A DNA stretch of 64,000 bases from Hufsiella ginkgonis (GCF_009834915.1 NZ_WVHS01000002.1:930001-994000), one strand, 5' to 3'. Positions 2,430-55,664 are shown, numbered from the stretch's first letter. A program made the numbers and translations. The notes: generated by a model from the letters alone, not told the origin.

Positions 2430-2817
2430 TATTTTTTAAAAGCTCTTTGATTTTTTTCAATTCCTCGGCCGAAGTCTGATCATTACCCAGTAAAGCCAGC
2501 ATCAGCTCGCTCGGAGAGCCGTTGTAGATATTCTCGACGAACTTGCCCAGCAGTGAGCCTTTTACCTGCGCCTCCTTCACCGCAGCAGAATAAACATGCT
2601 TCATCTGGCTTTCGTCCCTGTCCAGCATCCCTTTCTCTTTCATCAACTGCATCAGCTTAAGCGTAGAAGTATATACAGCTACTTCGCGCTGTTCATTAAG
2701 TTTATCGTGCACAAAGCGAACAGTAGAGGGACCGCATTCCCAAAGGATCTTCAGCACGTCCATCTCGGTTTTTGTTGGGGCATTTTCCCCGGCACTATCT
2801 TTCCTAAATAAATCCAT
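2422..2817 (-). CDS. BlaI/MecI/CopY family transcriptional repressor
   Basis: 131 aa, normal length for the family. An N-terminal winged helix (PTKTEMDVLKILWECGPSTVRFVHDKL) is followed by a C-terminal dimerisation region. BlaI proteins repress their own operon until cleaved after BlaR1 activation. It is the first gene of a presumed blaI-blaR1-serine hydrolase operon. The start at 2817 lies 4 nt behind a TAGGTTTG -7 element. Confidence 0.9.
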   Translation of the reverse strand: MDLFRKDSAGENAPTKTEMDVLKILWECGPSTVRFVHDKLNEQREVAVYTSTLKLMQLMKEKGMLDRDESQMKHVYSAAVKEAQVKGSLLGKFVENIYNGSPSELMLALLGNDQTSAEELKKIKELLKNID

Positions 2818-2821
2818 GACG

Positions 2822-2853
2822 CAAACCTATGCATTAAAAACGTACGTTACAAA
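2822..2853 (-). promoter_or_regulatory. Bacteroidota-type promoter of the blaI operon with a palindrome in the spacer
   Basis: Read on the minus strand: TTTG at 2853-2850, a 20-nt spacer, and TAGGTTTG at 2829-2822, an exact match to the TTTG-N19/20-TAnnTTTG pattern. The spacer holds the perfect 10-bp palindrome AACGTACGTT (2839-2848), a plausible operator for the BlaI-like repressor. The ATG follows after only 4 nt, so the transcript should be nearly or fully leaderless. Confidence 0.7.
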
Positions 2854-2973
2854 TAAATCTCGAAATATTTATCAAATCGCCAAGGATCGTGTAATAGCGC
2901 AGACTACTGGAGATGGTAGATCAGGCTATTGAAAATTGGAAAACATCGGATCAAGCTGAATTTCCTGGGAGTA

Positions 2974-3117
2974 GATTTGGCTGCCAGCTATCAGCATTTA
3001 GCCCGTAAGTATACTTATAAGATAAGTAATTGACGTTGAGCTCTTCCTGAGTAGTATTCCAGGTTTGACAGTGTAATCAAAGCTGATTGCTAATTGCTGA
3101 TAGCTGAAAGCTAATGG
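2974..3117. repeat. Inverted repeat of GCTGATAGCTG-type words
   Basis: The left arm around 2974-3002 (GCCAGCTATCAGCATTTAGC) is nearly the reverse complement of the right arm around 3086-3117 (GCTAATTGCTGATAGCTG). They are separated by about 85 bp of unrelated sequence. A similar arrangement with the same word lies at 21637-21765. It could be a remnant of a small non-coding repeat element. Confidence 0.5.
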
Positions 3118-3179
3118 CTCCCAAACTTTTAAGCCTGATCCCTTATTACCAGATAAACAATAAGTTAGAAAAGAAAAAA

Positions 3180-3215
3180 GCCGGAGTTAGAACTAAAATC
3201 GGAACTAACTCCGGC
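3180..3215 (-). terminator. Intrinsic terminator attached to tRNA-3'-like element A
   Basis: Perfect 11-bp stem GCCGGAGTTAG / CTAACTCCGGC with a 14-nt loop. On the minus strand it is followed by T6-C-T4. It starts right after the CC end of the tRNA-like element at 3218-3250, the same arrangement as the intact tRNA-Arg at 11831-11904 and its terminator. Confidence 0.75.
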
Positions 3216-3217
3216 CA

Positions 3218-3250
3218 GGTACGCCCGGCTGAACGGTTTTCGAACCATTG
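3218..3250 (-). repeat. tRNA-3'-end-like element A
   Basis: On the minus strand this reads as a T-arm-like stem with a TTCGAA loop, followed by CAGCCGGGCGTACC, which resembles an acceptor 3' strand plus discriminator and CC. The last nine bases equal the 3' end of the intact tRNA-Arg at 11829-11837. No tRNA body can be found on its 5' side, and its T-loop is one base too long. It is almost identical to elements at 10309-10346 and 11713-11742. It is probably a tRNA-gene remnant or tRNA-like RNA; function unknown. Confidence 0.55.
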
Positions 3251-3871
3251 AAGCTAAAATCGTAAAAAAGCGATTTTTTTTAACTGCCTTAAGTAACTAG
3301 CGTTCAGTTGTCGCCGAGGTTTCACGGAGAAAAAAGACATTTATATTCAGATAGTAATAAAGGCGATAAGGCATTCTGTAATGCACAAAACTCGCTAATC
3401 GTTTTCAAGCCAAAAAACCGGACAATCACCATAAACAAAGTCATTGATCGGCTGCAGATACCAATTGGACAAATTTCAAACGTCTAGTGGGTAGAGGTGC
3501 TAAAAAGTGGCAATTATGATCTTAATGTTTACTGATAGAGAGCCGGCAATGCCGAGGGCTCGTTCTCTTCAGCGAGGAATACGTCAAGGTATTTAGCCAC
3601 CTTTCCGATGTTTAAACGACAAAAGGTATTTCTATCGAAACAGCCCGAGAAGGATACGGGCGGCGATTTCCTCGCCGTACACGGATCTCGGTACGCGGGC
3701 CACCCCGGCAAACTATCGTCTCGGCGTCATGCGAGTTCCTGTAGTCGATAGAAAATCACTATTGGTCTATAGATCACACCCTATCGGCGATTATGAATCG
3801 ATCTTTAAAAACCGTTAATTAGTTTAGCAGTTGATCAGGGAGATCTATTCAGGCATAAAACCATTTAACAC

Positions 3872-3879
3872 TATTTTTG
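3872..3879 (+). promoter_or_regulatory. -7 element (TATTTTTG) of the first DUF3500 gene
   Basis: TATTTTTG fits the Bacteroidota -7 pattern TAnnTTTG. It ends only 4 nt before the ATG at 3884, so transcription would start at or next to the start codon. No clear TTTG -33 element is seen at the usual distance. Confidence 0.55.
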
Positions 3880-3883
3880 AGAC

Positions 3884-5095
3884 ATGACAAAGACCAGCTT
3901 GTTATCCTTCACCATCATCGCTTTATTTTCGCTCGGGTCTAGCCTTGTAAGGAATTCGGACCGGGCGATTGCCCCAGTAGATCAAACTCAAGTAATTGTC
4001 AAAGCGACGACTCTCTTTTTAAATTCACTAAACGCTGAACAGCGCGTAAAGATCTCCTTCCCTTTTACGCCTCAGAAAGCTGCAGTGTCGGCTACTTTCG
4101 CACGTTCGGGCAACGCAGGAGGTCAGCCGGCAGGCGGGGGAAATCAGGGCAATCGCCCACCAGGAAACGGCAATCGTCCGGCAGGCGGCCCTCCGGGAGG
4201 CGGCGGCGGTGGCAGGGGCGGACAGTTTGCCGGCTTTATCGGCGAACAATATGGTCAGGCTGTATGGTCGAACTATCCTGTCAGCGACGTGCCACGGCCC
4301 GGGCTTCAGTTGGGCAGCCTTACTGCCGTTCAGCGGGAAGCGGCGATGAAGATGCTTCAGCAGCTATTAAGTGCCAAAGGCTACGAAAAGGTCTTACAGA
4401 TCATGGGTTCTGACCAGGCACTGGCAGATGGTGGCACCAACTATGCTTCAGGAAAAGATGTGTACACGCTCGGAATCTTCGGAACCCCAAATACTAAAAC
4501 ACCCTGGATGGTCGAATTTGGTGGGCATCATTTGGGCCTTAACGTGATCATCGCCGGATCACAAGGTGCGCTAACGCCTACCTTGACCGGCGCACAACCC
4601 TCAGTTTACCAGTCGAACGGCAAAACCGTACGTGTACTGGCCGCAGAAAATGACAAGGCTTTTGACTTGCTGAATGCCCTCGACGATGAACAACGAAAAA
4701 AAGCTATCCTGAATTACAACATCGGCGACCTCGTGCTTGGCCCCGGTCACGATGGTGAAGTGATCGTGCCGGAGGGTTTGAAAGCATCGGGAATGACAAC
4801 GAAACAAAAAGAGATGCTGGTTGACCTGATCTCACAGTGGGCCGGGATCATTAATGATGTTTATGTGCAAGCCAGGATGAAGGAAATCAGGGCAGGAATT
4901 AACGACACGTACTTTGCCTGGAGCGGCCCTACGACTCACCAACCCGGAAAGAATGGAAATTCTTACTACCGTATCCAGGGACCGCGAGTGATCATCGAAT
5001 TTTCACCACAAGGCGTTGGCGGAGATCCAACAATGCATGTCCATACCATTTACCGGGATCCGCTGAACAGTTACGGGAATGCGTTTTCGAAGTAA
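3884..5095 (+). CDS. Secreted DUF3500 family protein
   Basis: 403 aa. An N-terminal signal sequence is followed by a region of low complexity rich in Gly, Asn and Pro (about residues 75-110), which the two paralogues at 7598 and 8849 lack. The body carries the family landmarks FGGHH (about 213), GDLVLGPGHDG and YRIQGPRVIIEF, ending with MHVHTIYRDPLNSYG. The paired histidines near the middle and the HxH...RD near the end suggest a metal site, but this is inference because DUF3500 has no established function known to me. A HupE-like gene follows after 19 bp, the same gap as in the mirror-image unit at 6322-8695. Confidence 0.85.
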   Translation: MTKTSLLSFTIIALFSLGSSLVRNSDRAIAPVDQTQVIVKATTLFLNSLNAEQRVKISFPFTPQKAAVSATFARSGNAGGQPAGGGNQGNRPPGNGNRPAGGPPGGGGGGRGGQFAGFIGEQYGQAVWSNYPVSDVPRPGLQLGSLTAVQREAAMKMLQQLLSAKGYEKVLQIMGSDQALADGGTNYASGKDVYTLGIFGTPNTKTPWMVEFGGHHLGLNVIIAGSQGALTPTLTGAQPSVYQSNGKTVRVLAAENDKAFDLLNALDDEQRKKAILNYNIGDLVLGPGHDGEVIVPEGLKASGMTTKQKEMLVDLISQWAGIINDVYVQARMKEIRAGINDTYFAWSGPTTHQPGKNGNSYYRIQGPRVIIEFSPQGVGGDPTMHVHTIYRDPLNSYGNAFSK

Positions 5096-5114
5096 TCCGC
5101 GCTAGTAAGGGCTT

Positions 5115-6305
5115 ATGCGACTGAAATTTAGGTTACTGATTTTTTTCGCGCTCCAGCTTGTGTCAACGCCCGGTGCGTTCGCACATCGTTTAAACGAATA
5201 TCTCCAGGCAACTACTATTAGTCTTTCACGTGACAAAGTAGTACTCGGCTTTCATTTAACACCCGGCGTCGACGTCGCACTTGCGATATTGAAAATAATT
5301 GATCTCAACAACGATCACCAAATTTCAGAAGCGGAAGAACAGGGATACCTGAAGATGTTGAGCCATGACCTTTTGGTTTCCATCGACGGACACAGCACTA
5401 CCCTCCATCTCTCTTCCTTTAGTTTTCCTGCAGTCCGGGATTTCAGTAAAGGAACAGGTAGCATTACCATCAACTATGAAGGTGATATCGATCAGCAAAA
5501 ACCGTCACACACGTTCATTTTAAAGAATCGCCACTACCCTTCTATTGCTGTATACCTGGTGAATTGCCTCCTTCCGGCCGATCCCAGCGTCCACGTAACC
5601 AGCCAGACGCGGAACACTAACCAGTCCATCTATCAGCTCGATTTTACTACAGGGCCGATATCACTAGCCTCAACTGCAGACCAGCTGAAGAGCGAAGATC
5701 ACCAGGCCGTTGTTAAAACGTATTTCCTGCACGGCATTAAACATATCCTCACAGGTTATGACCATTTGCTTTTTTTGTGCGCCCTGGTATTGGGTGCCGC
5801 TGGCTTATGGGACCTTATAAAGGTTGTAACTGCGTTTACGATCGCTCACTCGCTGACGCTCACCCTTGCTGCTCTGGGATATGCACATCTACCGCAGAAT
5901 AGCGTTGAACCGATCATAGCTGCGAGCATCGTGTTTGTCGCTATTCAGAATGTTGCCTGGCCGAATCAGGCCAAAGGATACAGCCGGATTACCGTAGCTT
6001 TTTTCTTCGGCCTTTTCCACGGACTAGGTTTTGCTGGTGGACTTTTGGAACTAATGCACGCCATGCCGGAGCAAATATTGTTGTATGCAATATTGGGATT
6101 CAGCCTTGGAGTAGAGGCAGGAAATCAAATCGTGCTATTGCCGCTATATGGAGTATTGCGGTGGCTGGGTTGGGTAAACAACGACGTCGGAAATTCCGGT
6201 CGTTGGCCAACTGTACGGAGGTACGCATCCGGTGCGGTCGGGATCGCAGGCCTCTATTATTTTTGCAATGCACTAATGCCTCTCTTTAATAGCCTGAGCG
6301 GTTAG
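5115..6305 (+). CDS. HupE/UreJ-type membrane protein with an EF-hand-like loop
   Basis: 396 aa. A signal peptide (cut after AFA) and an extracytoplasmic N-terminal half of about 200 residues are followed by a multi-helix membrane domain with GYDHLLF (about 213) and TAFTIAHSLTL (about 238), the marks of the HupE/UreJ_2 group. Some HupE/UreJ proteins are linked to nickel or cobalt uptake; the substrate here is unknown. Residues 62-73 (DLNNDHQISEAE) match the 12-residue EF-hand loop with acidic or amide ligands at positions 1, 3, 5 and 12. It is convergent with a second HupE-like gene whose end lies 16 bp away. Confidence 0.82.
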   Translation: MRLKFRLLIFFALQLVSTPGAFAHRLNEYLQATTISLSRDKVVLGFHLTPGVDVALAILKIIDLNNDHQISEAEEQGYLKMLSHDLLVSIDGHSTTLHLSSFSFPAVRDFSKGTGSITINYEGDIDQQKPSHTFILKNRHYPSIAVYLVNCLLPADPSVHVTSQTRNTNQSIYQLDFTTGPISLASTADQLKSEDHQAVVKTYFLHGIKHILTGYDHLLFLCALVLGAAGLWDLIKVVTAFTIAHSLTLTLAALGYAHLPQNSVEPIIAASIVFVAIQNVAWPNQAKGYSRITVAFFFGLFHGLGFAGGLLELMHAMPEQILLYAILGFSLGVEAGNQIVLLPLYGVLRWLGWVNNDVGNSGRWPTVRRYASGAVGIAGLYYFCNALMPLFNSLSG

Positions 6306-6321
6306 AGCCCCGAGATCGTCT

Positions 6322-7578
6322 TTAATCAGCTTCAGGGCTGTTCTTTTTAAAATAACTGAGTAACGCCAGAATCGCCAGGAAAAAAAGTAACCCATACGCA
6401 GATCCTGATATCGCCTGAAGCGCACTACTGATGCTATTGGGACTTCCCGAAACCCGCTCAATGATCCAGGCGACCGCAGCGATTCCGGCAAAGATTGCGC
6501 CTCCGACCCTGACCTCTTTATAAGTCCGGTTCCGGCTCAAAATAATCAACCAGGGAATAGTGATTACGATGATCAGCAATTGCATTAATTCGATCCCCAG
6601 GTTAAACCCAAGTATACTTAATGCGAGCGATCCCGCATCAAGATCAAGGCTTACCAGGCTTTCTGCGAAGGCCATGCCGTGAATGAGACCAAAGCCTGCG
6701 GCAATAAACAGCTCTTTTCCCGGGAACAATGGCCTGAAGGCGTGGGCGGCAGAAACAAGTATGCTTACCGCGATCAGGATTTCTATCGGTTTAACCGGAA
6801 AGTGGACAATCCCTGTTGATCCGATAATCAGCGTGATGGAGTGGCCAATAGTAAAAGCGGTAACAATCTTTACAATGTGACGTAGACTGTGGGATACTCC
6901 CCAGAATCCTGCCCATCGCTTGCGCTTAACGAGCAGCGTAGCAGGCAACAGCAGGGTCAGCAGGAACAGTAAATGGTCCGTTCCCTCACGGATATGCTCC
7001 ATGCCCAGGCTGACCATACTCATAAATCCCTTCCAGCTGCTGCCCTCCCCAAGACGTACTTCGAGGGGGAAGATCTTACCAGTAGGCACGTCAAGCTTGA
7101 TCACGCCGAGGGGCCGGGTGGTTAAATCATCGCGTACCCCGTTCTTCCAGTCCTGCTCCACAAACACGATCGCACTATGTGTAACCACCTGGTGGATAAT
7201 CACATCGTAGTCGAACGTGAAATTACGCAGGTTGTCCGAATCGGGTGGCATCATCAAAAAATGCACTTCCACCTCATCATAACTGCCCACTGTAGAATCC
7301 TGAGTGGTGGCTACTAAAATCTTATCGATAGTCGTTTTCCAGGGTTTACCGCCCGATATCGCCCGAATGTGACTGGTAAAATACCGTGTAAAAAACGGCG
7401 TGTTTAAGTTACCGACCGGCCTGCCTATCGCATTTTCCAGTTCTATCTTCGGCATAAATGCTACACCACGTATTTCACGGTTAAGAACGGAAAGCTTCAC
7501 CACCGAGCCGGGCATGGGGTGTGCGGCCAGGTCTCCGGCGAATAAAAGAAAAGCGATTAAAAAACAATAGTTACGCAT
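6322..7578 (-). CDS. HupE/UreJ-type membrane protein (second copy)
   Basis: 418 aa. A signal peptide (ending in LAAHPMPG) and an N-terminal periplasmic domain precede a membrane domain with GTDHLLFLLTLLLPA (about 197), TAFTIGHSITL and HGMAFAESL. The same landmarks occur in the gene at 5115, but the N-terminal halves differ and there is no EF-hand-like loop here. It starts 19 bp after the stop of the DUF3500 lipoprotein gene and so is probably co-transcribed with it. It is probably a metal permease or a membrane partner of DUF3500; this is inference from context. Confidence 0.82.
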   Translation of the reverse strand: MRNYCFLIAFLLFAGDLAAHPMPGSVVKLSVLNREIRGVAFMPKIELENAIGRPVGNLNTPFFTRYFTSHIRAISGGKPWKTTIDKILVATTQDSTVGSYDEVEVHFLMMPPDSDNLRNFTFDYDVIIHQVVTHSAIVFVEQDWKNGVRDDLTTRPLGVIKLDVPTGKIFPLEVRLGEGSSWKGFMSMVSLGMEHIREGTDHLLFLLTLLLPATLLVKRKRWAGFWGVSHSLRHIVKIVTAFTIGHSITLIIGSTGIVHFPVKPIEILIAVSILVSAAHAFRPLFPGKELFIAAGFGLIHGMAFAESLVSLDLDAGSLALSILGFNLGIELMQLLIIVITIPWLIILSRNRTYKEVRVGGAIFAGIAAVAWIIERVSGSPNSISSALQAISGSAYGLLFFLAILALLSYFKKNSPEAD

Positions 7579-7597
7579 TCACCGATCGGACAATATT

Positions 7598-8695
7598 TCA
7601 ATTACTGCCGTAATCGGTTTTCTTATCTCTCCAAACAGAATGCGGATGGTTGCCTGAAAGAATAACCCCGTGCTGGCAATTGTATTCGATCCAAACAGAT
7701 GGTCCGTCAATCCTTACATAATCGTTTTGCGTGACAAGACCGGTCGTCCCGGAATAGGAAATGTAGGTATTGTCCAGTTCATTCGAGTATTTTGCAGTGA
7801 TCGGGGCGGCGTCAGCGACGTCACCTACATACGTTGCGATAGCTGCCATGACAAGCGCTTTTTGCGAAGCAGACAACGAGCTGCAGGCTATTCCGGAAGG
7901 CGTAGAAGGAAAGGCAGCATCTTTTTGCGGGCCAACCAAAATATCGCTAAAAGTGGCGTTCAATTTCGCCGTAGCGAGCTGAGCAGTCGTCAGCCCGTTA
8001 AGCATGGCAGAAAACGCTGCTTGCTCTGCCTGTAGCGGTTGATTGCTTTTGCTGTTCCAGGTAAACGTGCCAAATGGCTCTACACCGCGGAATGACGGTG
8101 TTGCACCGACGAGAACCCCGTCCTTATATGTATTTGCGAATGCATCGTGATGACCGCCGAACATGATCTCGAATGTGCCGGTAGTAGCCGGCGTGCCCAG
8201 GAGTGCGATGTAATAGTTGGCTGCTCCATATTCGCTGCTACCGCCATTTGCGCCCAGATACTCGTCTGCATTTAGTAATTGCTGCTGTTCGTCCCACCCT
8301 TCGTCAGCTCCTGCACCAGCTACCGCTTTGATCAGCGCTTTTGCATATTGGATCTGCGTCGTAGTCATGGAGCCGAAATTCAGGCCAACGCGTTTGTTAG
8401 AACTTTGAACCAGGGCCTGGGGCAAATTCGACCATTTTTTTGCATTGGCACTTGAATAAGCGGTCTGTAAGGTAGCCACCTGCGAGGAAGTCAAGGTTGC
8501 TTTAAATGCATCCGACAGGCAAACTACCTTACTAATACCTGTTTGAATGGCACAACCAGTTACCTCGACAGGGTCTGGATTGTACGTTGTCGAACCAGTA
8601 GTATTGGAGTTTGCTGATTTATCTTTCTTGCAGGATCCTAGTAGTCCACTAAGAAGGACTACTGCTAAAATTAATTTCGATCTGATCATTTTCAC
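7598..8695 (-). CDS. DUF3500 family lipoprotein
   Basis: 365 aa from a GTG at 8695; an ATG at 8689 gives MIRSK and is an equally good start. A lipobox (LLGSC) puts the protein at the membrane on the extracytoplasmic side. The DUF3500 landmarks are present: FGGHHDAFANTY (about residue 180), YVRIDGPSVWIEY and the C-terminal HPHSVWRDKKTDYG. It is very similar to the neighbour at 8849-9931 (shared SNLPQ/SNFPQ, VGATPSFRGVEP, ETYVGD, HPHSVWRDKKTDYG), so the two are a tandem duplication. It has its own -7 element (8710-8717). Confidence 0.85.
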   Translation of the reverse strand: MKMIRSKLILAVVLLSGLLGSCKKDKSANSNTTGSTTYNPDPVEVTGCAIQTGISKVVCLSDAFKATLTSSQVATLQTAYSSANAKKWSNLPQALVQSSNKRVGLNFGSMTTTQIQYAKALIKAVAGAGADEGWDEQQQLLNADEYLGANGGSSEYGAANYYIALLGTPATTGTFEIMFGGHHDAFANTYKDGVLVGATPSFRGVEPFGTFTWNSKSNQPLQAEQAAFSAMLNGLTTAQLATAKLNATFSDILVGPQKDAAFPSTPSGIACSSLSASQKALVMAAIATYVGDVADAAPITAKYSNELDNTYISYSGTTGLVTQNDYVRIDGPSVWIEYNCQHGVILSGNHPHSVWRDKKTDYGSN

Positions 8696-8709
8696 TTTCG
8701 TTTAATACT

Positions 8710-8717
8710 CAAAAATA
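8710..8717 (-). promoter_or_regulatory. -7 element (TATTTTTG) upstream of the DUF3500 lipoprotein
   Basis: TATTTTTG on the minus strand, ending 14 nt before the GTG start at 8695. It suggests the lipoprotein and HupE-like genes can be transcribed independently of the upstream DUF3500 gene. Confidence 0.45.
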
Positions 8718-8848
8718 CCCGCTCTCGCCGTGAAATTACCAGTGAGTCGATTAACACAAACCTTGTATCGATAAGCGCCCGTAATCACTACTTCCGCTAT
8801 GATCATTTACAGCTAAAGCCAAACCTGGTGCGAACGTGTTGTGCCTGC

Positions 8849-9931
8849 TTAGTTTCCGCCATAGTCTGTTTTCTTATCGCGCCAGACAGAATGAGGATGA
8901 GTGGCACCCCGGAAGTCCCTGCTCACCTGCGTATTGTATTCCAGCCATAGCCGGGGGCCATCCAACCGAATATAATCTGATATTTGTTCCATACTACCGC
9001 TGCCTGAAAATGCCAGATAGGTGCCGGGCAGGTCAGTCTTGTATCTGTTCATATAGGCTGCCTTGGTATCCTTGTCCAGATCGCCTACATAGGTTTCGAT
9101 GGCTTTAAGTATAAGTTGCTGCTGACCGGCATTCAATTCAGAAATTTTTAGTCCCTGGGGAGTGTTCGGGAATCTTCCGTCCGCTCCCGGACCCAGCAGA
9201 ATGTCGTTAAAGGTTCCGCTGAGTTTGGCCGCTGTCTTTTGACCTTCGCTCAGGCTGTTCAGTACTGCGATAAAAGCATCCTGCTCTTGTTTCATGGGCT
9301 GATACACCTTGCCGTTAGCCGTCATGGGTACGATGGGTTCTACTCCGCGGAAGGAAGGCGTTGCCCCAACCAGTTCACCATTGTTATACGTATCTGCAAA
9401 GGCGAAATGATGGCCTCCGTATTGCAGTTCCCACAAGCCTGAAGTGCTCGGAGTCCCCAGGAACGCTATAAAATAGATACCCGAACCGAATGACCTGGAT
9501 TGGCCGGTATGTCTCGCGATCGTATCATCGGCAACCCGTACACCCTCCAGTTCGCTAAGACCTTCATTTACGGTTTGGGCATCCATTGCTTCAGCCATCA
9601 ACGCTTTAAATGCGGTCATTTGTACGGTATTGAGCGATCCGAGCGTTAATCCTACCCTGTTTGGCCTGGCGGCCATCTGCGGAAAGTTTGACCATCTTAC
9701 AGCATTGCTTTTTGAATATTCCAGTTGTAATAACGCGCGCTGGTCATCACTTAATGTTGCTTTAAACGCGTCAGCGAGCTTGACTATGCTGGAAATATTG
9801 GACGCGGCAGGGTGACCGGATGAAAACCGGGGTAATGGGTCGTGAGCCAGCTTATCCGCGGTAAGTTCCCGAATCCCAGCTACCGAGAGTGGTAAAATAA
9901 TTCCTAAATAAAATAAACCCGAATACTTCAT
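8849..9931 (-). CDS. Secreted DUF3500 family protein (third copy)
   Basis: 360 aa with an N-terminal hydrophobic signal (YLGIILPLSVAG) and no lipobox. DUF3500 landmarks: YGGHHFAFADTYN (about residue 171), YIRLDGPRLWLEY and the C-terminal HPHSVWRDKKTDYG. It is separated from the paralogue at 7598-8695 by 153 bp on the same strand. It may head a three-gene unit DUF3500-DUF3500-HupE that mirrors the DUF3500-HupE pair at 3884-6305. Molecular function unknown. Confidence 0.85.
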   Translation of the reverse strand: MKYSGLFYLGIILPLSVAGIRELTADKLAHDPLPRFSSGHPAASNISSIVKLADAFKATLSDDQRALLQLEYSKSNAVRWSNFPQMAARPNRVGLTLGSLNTVQMTAFKALMAEAMDAQTVNEGLSELEGVRVADDTIARHTGQSRSFGSGIYFIAFLGTPSTSGLWELQYGGHHFAFADTYNNGELVGATPSFRGVEPIVPMTANGKVYQPMKQEQDAFIAVLNSLSEGQKTAAKLSGTFNDILLGPGADGRFPNTPQGLKISELNAGQQQLILKAIETYVGDLDKDTKAAYMNRYKTDLPGTYLAFSGSGSMEQISDYIRLDGPRLWLEYNTQVSRDFRGATHPHSVWRDKKTDYGGN

Positions 9932-10197
9932 AATGACTTTGGTTCTTTTAAAATTAAATATGTTTAATACGATATTGTTCAGTTCCCCCCGTAATCCGAC
10001 ACTTTACGCCGCTAAATTAAGTGCAGCCACATATTTCCATTGCTAAACGTTTGGGAAAGTTAATCAACTTCTACCGGTGAAGCATAATGTCCCGGTAAAA
10101 GGGTGAATTGACTCGGTGAAGAGGTACAGATACATCAAACCACGGAATTCACGGAAATGTATGCATATCTACCTATACGGTTCGATAAGTACGGTAT

Positions 10198-10229
10198 GGT
10201 TGACCCCAACAGGATTCGAACCTTTTTAC
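10198..10229 (-). repeat. tRNA-3'-end-like fragment
   Basis: On the minus strand it reads AAGGTTCGAATCCTGTTG followed by GGGTCAACC, resembling a T-arm with the standard TTCGAAT loop plus an acceptor 3' strand and CC. There is no tRNA body upstream and no adjacent terminator hairpin. Probably a decayed tRNA fragment. Confidence 0.45.
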
Positions 10230-10266
10230 CTTCAAAATATTCTGAAAGAAAGCATTTAAAAATACG

Positions 10267-10299
10267 AAAACCGCGTTTTTGAGCTAAAAACGCGGTTTT
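10267..10299 (-). terminator. Intrinsic terminator attached to tRNA-3'-like element B
   Basis: Perfect 14-bp stem AAAACCGCGTTTTT / AAAAACGCGGTTTT with a short loop. On the minus strand a T-rich run (TTTTCGTATTTTT) follows. It lies 9 bp from the tRNA-like element at 10309, as in modules A and D. Confidence 0.7.
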
Positions 10300-10308
10300 T
10301 AAACACCA

Positions 10309-10346
10309 GGTACACCCGGCTGAACGGTTTTCGAACCGTTGAAGGG
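10309..10346 (-). repeat. tRNA-3'-end-like element B
   Basis: On the + strand GGTACACCCGGCTG is followed by the hairpin AACGGTT-TTCG-AACCGTT. It is nearly identical to element A at 3218 over about 33 bp (one difference in the acceptor part, one in the arm). A and B are therefore direct repeats bracketing the DUF3500-HupE cluster. They may be attachment-site-like tRNA duplications or independent tRNA-like RNAs. Confidence 0.55.
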
Positions 10347-10390
10347 GAAAATTGCAAAAACCTGCCCGTTGCCTAACATCATGCCAGGCT

Positions 10391-11566
10391 CTACGAAATT
10401 GATATCGAATTGAGATTATCCGTTATATTATTCCATGGAACAACCTTTAAACCATTGCTTCTGATTTGCGTTTCGCTGCCAGCGTATATGACTGTTCCTC
10501 GTTCCGATCCTGTTATTTTTTTCCAGAACAAAAAGTTTTTGAAATAGTCACTTGTTATTGTTTTACCAGCTTTAATCTCTATAGGATAGAGATCAGTCCC
10601 GTTATCCACAACAACATCCATTTCGTTGCCTACGTTATCACGCCAAAAGTAGAGATTAAACACCTCGTTTTTATTATAACGTTCTTTAACGAGATCGCTT
10701 AGAACATAGTTTTCAAACAAACTCCCTTTGAGAGGATGCGTATCCAAATAGTCGATTTTACTAATTCCTAATAACGAACAGGCCAAACCCGTGTCGTAAA
10801 AATATAATTTTGGCATTTTCACCAGCCTTTTATTGAAGTTTTTATGGTGAGGCTTAAGCAGGTAAATAATGAAACTACTTTCTAAAACACTGATCCACGA
10901 AGCTATCGTTTTACCATCCACCCCGGTTTCAGTAGCCAGGCTGTTCAGGTTTAACAATTGGCCTATCCGGCCCGCACAGAGCTTTATAAACCGTTCAAAT
11001 GCGTTCACATTAGCTATGTTTTTAAGCTGGCGCACATCTCTTTCAATATAGGTCCGAATGTAGTTCGGTAACCACCGATCGGGAGAGATAGGATTATCAT
11101 AGATTGGAGGATACCCCCCACGGAACATTGAACTTTCGATAGATTGAAACTCCCCAAGAAACAACCTGACTTCTTCAGTCGAGAATGGGAGAAGAAAAAT
11201 ATACCCGATCCTGCCGGCGAGGCTTTGTGATATATTTTCCTGCAATAGGAAATTGTTAGAGCCAGTCAGGATAAATCTTCCCTGTTCCCGGCTATCATCA
11301 AGGATTTGTTGTAAATAAGAAAACAGCTCTGGTACGCGCTGTGCTTCATCAAAAATGGCGCCCTCCGGATATTGCCCCAGAAAGCCGCGCGGATCTTCTA
11401 CAGCAAATTGGCGGGTATCCGGATTTTCTAAGGAAACATATTTCTTACCGGGAAACACACTTCGTGCAAGGGTCGTTTTTCCTGATTGGCGCGGTCCGAC
11501 GATAGCAATAGCCTTAAATTGCTTAGATAAACTAATAAGTTCTTTAGTGACGCTCCTTGTTACCAT
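10391..11566 (-). CDS. AAA family ATPase with DUF4143 domain
   Basis: 391 aa. Walker A GPRQSGKTT is near residue 24, Walker B-like GAIFDEAQ near 70, and a sensor-like FILTGSNNFLL follows. A C-terminal DUF4143 region contains YPIEIKAGKT, a nuclease-like (PD-D/ExK-type) E-x-K patch. These ATPases are common, patchily distributed accessory genes of unproven function. The gene stands alone between tRNA-like elements B and C. The ATG at 11566 lies 4 nt from a TATGTTTG -7 element, and a 47-bp palindrome sits just upstream. Confidence 0.88.
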   Translation of the reverse strand: MVTRSVTKELISLSKQFKAIAIVGPRQSGKTTLARSVFPGKKYVSLENPDTRQFAVEDPRGFLGQYPEGAIFDEAQRVPELFSYLQQILDDSREQGRFILTGSNNFLLQENISQSLAGRIGYIFLLPFSTEEVRLFLGEFQSIESSMFRGGYPPIYDNPISPDRWLPNYIRTYIERDVRQLKNIANVNAFERFIKLCAGRIGQLLNLNSLATETGVDGKTIASWISVLESSFIIYLLKPHHKNFNKRLVKMPKLYFYDTGLACSLLGISKIDYLDTHPLKGSLFENYVLSDLVKERYNKNEVFNLYFWRDNVGNEMDVVVDNGTDLYPIEIKAGKTITSDYFKNFLFWKKITGSERGTVIYAGSETQIRSNGLKVVPWNNITDNLNSISIS

Positions 11567-54393: not shown

Positions 54394-54972
54394 ATGGAAC
54401 AACTGATCCAGTTAGATCACCAGCTCTTTTTCGCCATTAATAACGGGCTTTCGAATCCCTTTTTCGATTGGCTGATGCCGTTCCTGCGGAACCGGTTTTT
54501 CTGGGCCCCGCTGTACCTCTTCTGGATCATTTTTTTTACCCGGAACTACGGGCGCAAAGGATTTGTACTGGTTGTGTTCCTGCTGGTTACGTTCGCCATT
54601 ACAGATATGTTGAGCTCGGGAATGATCAAACCGGCCATCCACCGGCTGCGGCCGTGCAACGATGTAACGTTAAAACACGACGTCAATTCAATCGTTGCCT
54701 GCGGGTCGGGATTCAGCTTTCCCTCCTCCCATGCCGCCAATCATTTTGCAATCGCGCTTTTCTTAATTACGGTGTTCCGCCGTAAATGGAAATGGATCAT
54801 GGCACTTGGCCTTGGCTGGGCGTTCTCTATTTCCCTGGCGCAGGTGTACGTGGGCGTGCATTTTCCGTTAGACGTTATCGCCGGCGCAGTATTGGGCTGC
54901 ATGATCGGCTATGTTACCGGCACTATATTTCTCACCCTTCAAACAGGCAAGCAATGGCACCCTGGCAGCTGA
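54394..54972 (+). CDS. PAP2 family membrane phosphatase
   Basis: 192 aa. Six hydrophobic segments and the three-part acid phosphatase motif: KPAIHRLRP, SFPSSHAANHF and YVGVHFPLDVIAGA. It probably dephosphorylates a lipid pyrophosphate (undecaprenyl pyrophosphate) or phosphatidyl phosphate at the membrane. The ZIP gene overlaps its last 19 nt. Confidence 0.9.
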   Translation: MEQLIQLDHQLFFAINNGLSNPFFDWLMPFLRNRFFWAPLYLFWIIFFTRNYGRKGFVLVVFLLVTFAITDMLSSGMIKPAIHRLRPCNDVTLKHDVNSIVACGSGFSFPSSHAANHFAIALFLITVFRRKWKWIMALGLGWAFSISLAQVYVGVHFPLDVIAGAVLGCMIGYVTGTIFLTLQTGKQWHPGS

Positions 54973-55664
54973 TCATCCTGTTTGCGGGCTGTTTCGCAGG
55001 CGGGATTACTATTTTTTTCACCAAAGGCAACAATACGCGGCGCCTCAAGCTCATCCTCTCTTTTAGCGGCGCGTACTTGTTTGCCATTACCATATTGCAC
55101 CTGATACCGGAAGTATATATCGAAGGCGATCGTTATATCGGCCTTTTCGTGCTGGGTGGCTTTCTTTTCCAGGTCCTGCTGGAGCAGTATTCACAGGGGA
55201 TCGAACACGGACATATGCACAGCCACCCGCATGGTCATCATTCGTTTCCTTTCGGGATCATCCTGAGTTTATGCCTGCATGCCCTGCTGGAGGGGATGCC
55301 ACTATCGGGCGGCCACCGGAATGAGCTGGTATTCGGCATCGCGCTGCATCACGTTCCTGCGGCATTTGCCCTTGGAAGCCTACTGTTGGAGCGGCACATT
55401 TCCAGGAAGAGCATACTGGTGATAATTTTCGTTTTCGCTTTAATGACACCGGCCGGTTATTTACTGAGCAACCTCATCAGCAACAGCTCTTCCGTTACGA
55501 TCAGCGCTTATTTCCCCAGGATGATGGGCATCGTGATCGGGATATTCCTGCACATATCTACCACGATCCTTTTCGAATCAAGCGTAGATCATCACTTTAA
55601 CAGGAAAAAGCTGCTGGCAGTGCTGGCCGGAACGGCTATCGCGCTGCTCAGCTTCTTAGTGTAA
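54954..55664 (+). CDS. ZIP family metal transporter
   Basis: 236 aa from the ATG at 54954 (MAPWQLIILFAGCFAGG). The frame is open much farther upstream but that part only shadows the PAP2 gene. Eight hydrophobic segments, a His-rich loop EHGHMHSHPHGHH (about residues 84-96), and the transport helices LSLCLHALLEGMPLSGG and ALHHVPAAFALGSLLL with the metal-site His and Glu. It likely imports zinc or another divalent metal. It overlaps PAP2 and is convergent with a MarR gene 5 bp away. Confidence 0.88.
   Translation: MAPWQLIILFAGCFAGGITIFFTKGNNTRRLKLILSFSGAYLFAITILHLIPEVYIEGDRYIGLFVLGGFLFQVLLEQYSQGIEHGHMHSHPHGHHSFPFGIILSLCLHALLEGMPLSGGHRNELVFGIALHHVPAAFALGSLLLERHISRKSILVIIFVFALMTPAGYLLSNLISNSSSVTISAYFPRMMGIVIGIFLHISTTILFESSVDHHFNRKKLLAVLAGTAIALLSFLV

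Follow-up and report, generated by a model that had tools for sequence, protein, structure and literature searches.

The locus described here lies in a stretch of 64,000 nucleotides from Hufsiella ginkgonis (NZ_WVHS01000002.1:930001-994000), referred to below as the window, in which positions 3884 to 9931 hold two convergent gene units, each combining one or two genes for exported proteins of the DUF3500 family with a gene for a HupE-type permease. The two permeases carry different N-terminal domains, designated type A and type B, and the DUF3500 proteins fall into two clades, A and B. The genes and their domains, in window coordinates, are as follows.

3884-5095, plus strand: DUF3500 protein of clade B, 403 residues, with a hydrophobic leader and a Gly/Pro-rich linker; DUF3500 domain at 4259-5080
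5115-6305, plus strand: HupE_UreJ_2 permease with type-B N-terminal domain, 396 residues, starting HRLNEYLQAT after the predicted signal peptide and containing an EF-hand-like segment, DLNNDHQISEAE
5184-5186, plus strand: His codon right behind the predicted signal peptide (AFA/H), the probable mature N-terminus of the type-B domain
5721-6158, plus strand: HupE_UreJ_2 membrane domain (Pfam) of the 5115-6305 protein
6322-7578, minus strand: HupE_UreJ_2 permease with type-A N-terminal domain, 418 residues, starting HPMPGSVV, anglerase-like
6532-7014, minus strand: HupE_UreJ_2 membrane domain (Pfam) of the 6322-7578 protein
7051-7521, minus strand: type-A periplasmic domain with invariant His1 and near-invariant His51, His110 and His115, numbered from the mature His1
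7598-8695, minus strand: DUF3500 lipoprotein of clade A, 365 residues, with conserved His182, His183, Glu337, His350 and His352
8849-9931, minus strand: second DUF3500 paralogue of clade A, 360 residues, with a hydrophobic leader

The family assignments rest on Pfam scores for DUF3500 (PF12006, cut-off 27.2) of 250.8 bits for 3884-5095, 200.3 for 7598-8695 and 213.7 for 8849-9931, and for HupE_UreJ_2 (PF13795, cut-off 24.5) of 136.8 bits for 5115-6305 and 138.2 for 6322-7578. As read in the DNA, the DUF3500 and HupE genes of each unit are separated by exactly 19 bp (5096-5114 and 7579-7597), the stops of the convergent HupE genes are 16 bp apart, and 153 bp lie between the two minus-strand DUF3500 genes. 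The two convergent units with their 19-bp gaps had been described in an initial annotation of the window and are confirmed, as are the export signals that it assigned to all three DUF3500 proteins (a LLGSC lipobox in the product of 7598-8695, hydrophobic leaders in the other two) and the motifs GxDHLLF and TAFTIxHSxTL that it noted in both HupE proteins. NCBIfam provides no name for any protein of the window, and no urease or hydrogenase gene was noticed within it. A search of 2600-10600 and of 11 related loci against Rfam gave no relevant match that would point to a riboswitch or another form of RNA-based control, promoter and terminator scans returned no more than in shuffled sequence, and GC content showed no clear island signal.

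Distribution of the gene pair and form of the partner

A contig scan seeded with a DUF3500 alignment from the window proteins, and ranked by similarity to the query, yielded 79 DUF3500 loci, in 72 of which a partner of the same kind is the next gene downstream on the same strand. The hosts belong to the Bacteroidota, Actinomycetota, Alpha- and Gammaproteobacteria and Acidobacteriota, to which annotated plasmids add the Deinococcota. The survey of DUF3500-HupE co-occurrence that the initial annotation had proposed therefore finds the adjacency to be widespread, in at least five phyla, and not confined to this genome; since it recurs so widely, the arrangement is not due to chance. As the seeded scan ranks loci by similarity to the query, unbiased genome samples were also taken. 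Of 296 Bacteroidota genomes, 26 encode DUF3500 and four a strong type-A domain, which adjoins DUF3500 in all four; among 248 genomes of a Rhodobacteraceae-type family, 17 encode DUF3500 and six a strong type-A domain, in all six directly downstream of DUF3500. The majority of the DUF3500 proteins found in these samples are of the canonical kind, without a partner of this sort.

What stays constant beside DUF3500 is a periplasmic N-terminal domain whose predicted first mature residue is histidine, while the permease is not constant. The HupE_UreJ_2 membrane domain is fused to it in both window proteins and is absent from many relatives; in proteobacteria the gene after DUF3500 encodes the His-first domain alone, at about 190 residues and with no membrane part. 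Counted by form, there are 35 pairs with type A fused, 28 with type A free, nine with type B free and two with type B fused, 74 in all; two DUF3500 frames at one locus may enter this count as two pairs, and a few 'free' cases at contig ends or with a short open reading frame (ORF; L028, L086) may be truncated fusions. Profiles made separately from the fused and free forms match each other; with all ORFs as the search space, the fused-form profile finds the free forms at E values from 1e-8 to 1e-17. Free partner genes mostly overlap the DUF3500 stop by 4 bp, and 33 of the 37 pairs that are free or of type B have a partner start that would give this overlap. No HupE_UreJ_2 protein over the cut-off was found anywhere in at least four free-form genomes, including a complete Cobetia chromosome; the remaining free-form genomes examined have HupE proteins elsewhere. 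Pfam holds no model for the free partner domains.

Type-A domains start with HPMPxS, HxLPGS or HVLP, with His1 present in 47 of 47 rows and few exceptions at His51, His110 and His115, while type-B domains start with HRLxEYLQAT and contain an EF-hand-like loop. Histidine stands directly behind the predicted signal peptide cleavage site in 28/28 fused type-A, 47/47 of all type-A and 10/10 type-B domains. Profile comparison detected no sequence relation between the two types. The membrane domains of the two window HupE proteins are 38% identical over 146 residues, and the permease motif HX5DH and other His, Asp and Glu residues are invariant.

The window genome encodes a third, short HupE of 202 residues (G000:C12:347818-348303; L139:7714-8322, minus strand), which is the common form of HupE. 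An ORF of about 200 codons on the opposite strand (L139:8254-8856, plus) overlaps its start and gives a weak match to the type-A profile (E 4e-5); it may encode a DUF6702-like metal-binding protein. G035 (L132) has a divergent neighbour of a similar kind. The genome also has a fourth, solitary DUF3500 (in the region L005:6980-10970; G000:C12, about 1085 kb), upstream of which lie, on the same strand, genes for a 551-residue protein with a weak YtkA-like match and a 399-residue multi-pass membrane protein. Elsewhere, in a Bacteroidota genome (L134:4537-6717), the secreted protein encoded upstream of a DUF3500 starts with SANTPNTSSV, a type-A-like start with Asn in place of His. On a walnut Agrobacterium pAt plasmid (L187:6548-7846) a DUF3500 frame is apparently split in two ORFs with no gene listed; it is also present on many near-identical plasmids.

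Co-inheritance by clade, folds and conserved residues

In a tree of 140 DUF3500 proteins, clade A, clade B and the canonical members separate from one another. The partner follows this division: it is of type A for 70 of 82 proteins in clade A, of type B for 17 of 19 in clade B and absent for all 39 canonical members (0/39), an association matched in none of 500 shuffles. As the plus-strand unit combines clade B with type B and the minus-strand unit clade A with type A, the window brings together two different lineages and not the products of a duplication. Its earlier description as a duplicated module is thus misleading, the HupE N-terminal domains being without detectable similarity and the DUF3500 proteins falling into two well-supported clades. 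The DUF3500 encoded at 3884-5095 is 88% identical to the Mucilaginibacter pineti copy (clade B in the tree), and that at 8849-9931 groups with second copies in module loci of Hymenobacter (L020, L037) and Runella (L068). A requirement for the metal partner imposed by Sec as opposed to Tat export was also considered and dropped, since both signals are mixed in all clades.

Among 60 relatives of the window genome, DUF3500 occurs in three, the window genome included, and a long HupE of about 400 residues in the window genome only, so that in this family the units appear to be scattered and not ancestral. Such scatter, together with the mobility of the units, which occur on plasmids and in few genomes per family, is what would be expected if the genes were neighbours by descent or transfer with no joint function. 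Against this stand the strict order and strand, the frequent 4-bp overlap, the co-segregation by clade and the recruitment of two unrelated partner domains to the same position in the same manner, and we consider so fortuitous an association highly improbable. DUF3500 proteins of clades A and B and the His-first domain very likely form a functional pair.

The predicted structure of the 7598-8695 DUF3500 protein (predicted local distance difference test (pLDDT) score 89.5) has a single strong match in the PDB, 9x86 (Z 20.1, root-mean-square deviation 2.8, 247 aligned residues, about 23% identity), which is entitled 'dehydratase ApmL in Amipurimycin biosynthesis' and is the only solved DUF3500 member; the next match has a Z score of 3.9, and PDB entries besides 9x86 score at background, an absence to which we attach no meaning. 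The fold is therefore common to ApmL/Amc20 and the window protein over 247 residues, whereas the latter is exported and paired with a His-first domain. His182, His183, Glu337, His350 and His352 are 100% conserved in clade A, clade B and canonical DUF3500, which suggests a single metal or catalytic centre kept throughout the family. DUF3500, which the initial annotation had cast as a receptor, looks more like an enzyme family, its solved member being a biosynthetic dehydratase and a fungal member having been assigned to aromatic ring opening.

The type-A domain in the model of the 6322-7578 HupE protein (pLDDT 91.1) has a beta-sandwich fold, with copper-bound Ang-1 (9gce) as its best structural match (Z 11.9, 142 aligned residues); residue 20 of the model, equivalent to the mature His1, aligns with residue 1 of the 9gce chain. 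The next matches are the zinc-binding ZrgA and PA4063. Sequence profiles (A5 and A6) found no PDB chain at E<=1 and no detectable sequence similarity to RbAng-1a (9gce), and the domain is for this reason not filed as Ang-1. The anglerases Ang-1 and Ang-2 likewise have a signal peptide followed by His, a beta-sandwich and a fusion to HupE/UreJ-2 (PF13795) (Nat Commun 2025, PMC12537917), whereas the domains described here are paired with DUF3500 and often permease-free, those of type B having in addition an EF-hand-like loop. DUF3500 is not mentioned in the main-text neighbourhood lists of that paper.

With nickel/cobalt permeases of the HupE/UreJ family the window-type HupE proteins share PF13795 over the cut-off and the HX5DH motif, from which they differ by the extra N-terminal domain. 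The second HupE signature, FHGx[AV]HGxE, is not kept in full, type A having HGxAFA and type B FHGLGFA. CopC-CopD type fusions, in which a periplasmic N-terminal-His copper domain is joined to a permease of another membrane family, are similar in description. Given the predicted anglerase fold and the motifs that are invariant in the permease, the ligand is probably a transition metal.

Several neighbours of the pair are recorded here. PadR-type regulators with a His-rich N-terminus, possibly metal-responsive, lie beside type-B loci (L097:5119-5682, L187:4905-5549, L089:71-661 and L147:3061-3729) and presumably resemble the nickel-responsive YqjI of E. coli. The Hymenobacter plasmid NZ_CP141187.1 (L179) groups three DUF3500 genes with HupE and with genes for a TonB-dependent receptor and a cytochrome c peroxidase. 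In the window itself, a BlaI-type repressor and a BlaR1-type M56 peptidase are encoded as a pair on the minus strand at 978-2817, and 54786-55664 encodes a possible metal transporter, a ZIP-like membrane protein in which one loop (HGHMHSHPHGHH) is rich in His.

Substrate, metal and mechanism

A fungal DUF3500 protein, AN10530 of Aspergillus nidulans, belongs to the same Pfam/InterPro family as the window proteins and, as given in papers citing the assignment, is proposed to open the ring of 1,2,3,5-tetrahydroxybenzene in gallate catabolism; it differs from them in being fungal and in having no known metal partner. In several bacterial lineages the pair is itself linked to tannase or aromatic genes. 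At both L035 and L039 a subtype B tannase gene overlaps the stop of HupE, and L063 has such a gene nearby; on a Shinella plasmid (L184) one is found 0.3 kb from DUF3500 and a free type-A domain. Tannase B has a strong match in only 6 of 72,556 plasmid records and exceeds the cut-off in none of the 296 Bacteroidota genomes; a rough estimate from the latter sample, which treats the loci as independent, gives a probability of about 1e-10 for its presence at three loci by chance. Type-A loci of Saprospiraceae and Cytophagales sit within aromatic-degradation clusters; six type-A loci contain a catechol-2,3-dioxygenase-like gene, four contain PIG-L and CHA aldolase genes, one a 4-oxalomesaconate tautomerase and many an AraC regulator. 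Tannase B or a gallate-pathway gene is present at L029, L035, L039, L063 and the Shinella locus. Taken together, the fungal pathway work and the bacterial synteny suggest that at least some members of the family act on polyhydroxylated aromatic compounds. At three further loci a BD-FAE family esterase directly follows HupE (L025:8290-9228, L081:8280-9203 and L033:8732-9649, with a 4-bp overlap in two), in the position that tannase B occupies in L035 and L039.

The best single reading, to which we attach somewhat less than even confidence, is that of an extracytoplasmic metalloenzyme with a dedicated metal-binding partner and polyphenol- or polyol-like substrates. DUF3500 would be an exported or lipid-anchored metalloenzyme outside the cytoplasmic membrane, with an active site built of His182, His183, Glu337, His350 and His352, and would act on polyhydroxylated rings of the gallate/tannin type by ring opening or dehydration. 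The next gene would supply an anglerase-like periplasmic domain, with His as its first mature residue, that binds copper or nickel and serves either to load the active site of DUF3500 or to take up metal released from its complexes with polyphenols. In the window this domain is tethered to the HupE permease, so that metal could also enter the cell; in many proteobacteria it would work free of a permease. More specifically, and rather doubtfully, ring opening or dehydration of galloyl-type compounds by clades A and B may take place outside the cytoplasm, with metal from the dedicated His-first domain. DUF3500 would then be the first known client of an anglerase-type domain, in an extracytoplasmic system for tannins or gallate that has not been described before and for which two unrelated domains of this type were recruited independently.

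Several points weigh against a polyphenol-directed metalloenzyme. Residue conservation is the basis on which a metal site is assigned to DUF3500, the title of 9x86 reads dehydratase and not oxygenase, the fold prediction covers the type-A domain, and the fungal ring-opening assignment is a proposal in the papers that cite it. Tannase or aromatic genes occur in a minority of loci, several of which are related. In the window genome tannase_B scores about 30 bits at best, against a cut-off of 300, and 4-oxalomesaconate tautomerase is absent, so that the substrate there may differ.

The pair could instead serve metal acquisition, DUF3500 binding or dismantling metallophores or polyphenol-metal complexes at the surface and passing the metal through the His-first domain to HupE for import, a scheme close to that of the initial annotation and in our judgement a less likely one. 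For published anglerase-HupE fusions it has been proposed that Cu or Ni is captured and passed on to the permease (PMC12537917), and the invariant HX5DH and other His, Asp and Glu residues of the permease, the TonB receptor adjoining the Hymenobacter plasmid unit and the His-rich PadR regulators of four type-B loci would all be in keeping with it. However, half of the loci have a partner without the permease, some genomes have no such permease at all, and the relatives of DUF3500 are enzymes. Of the metal-handling system first proposed, the metal part is upheld to the extent that the HupE proteins carry a domain of the anglerase kind, while a receptor-permease couple is not supported as its essence, the partner being a periplasmic domain only in 37 of the 74 pairs.

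A further alternative makes the His-first domain a copper-dependent co-catalyst of DUF3500, acting as oxidase or electron-transfer partner and not as chaperone. Copper-loaded anglerases do show weak oxidase activity, although this is near that of free copper (PMC12537917), and the unit has a gene for cytochrome c peroxidase ahead of it in Hymenobacter and one for a cytochrome c behind it in Falsirhodobacter, although redox genes are no constant neighbour; we regard such a redox partnership as improbable.

Hardly anything has been published on DUF3500, and no client protein was known for the anglerases when they received their name in 2025; the strict pairing of genes described here offers both DUF3500 and the anglerase-like domains a partner and a concrete role. 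Because anglerase-like domains are also found where no permease is present, they must do more than import metal. If the link to tannins is true, the DUF3500 pair would add a metal-dependent, extracytoplasmic step to the breakdown of polyphenols by soil, plant-associated and marine bacteria.

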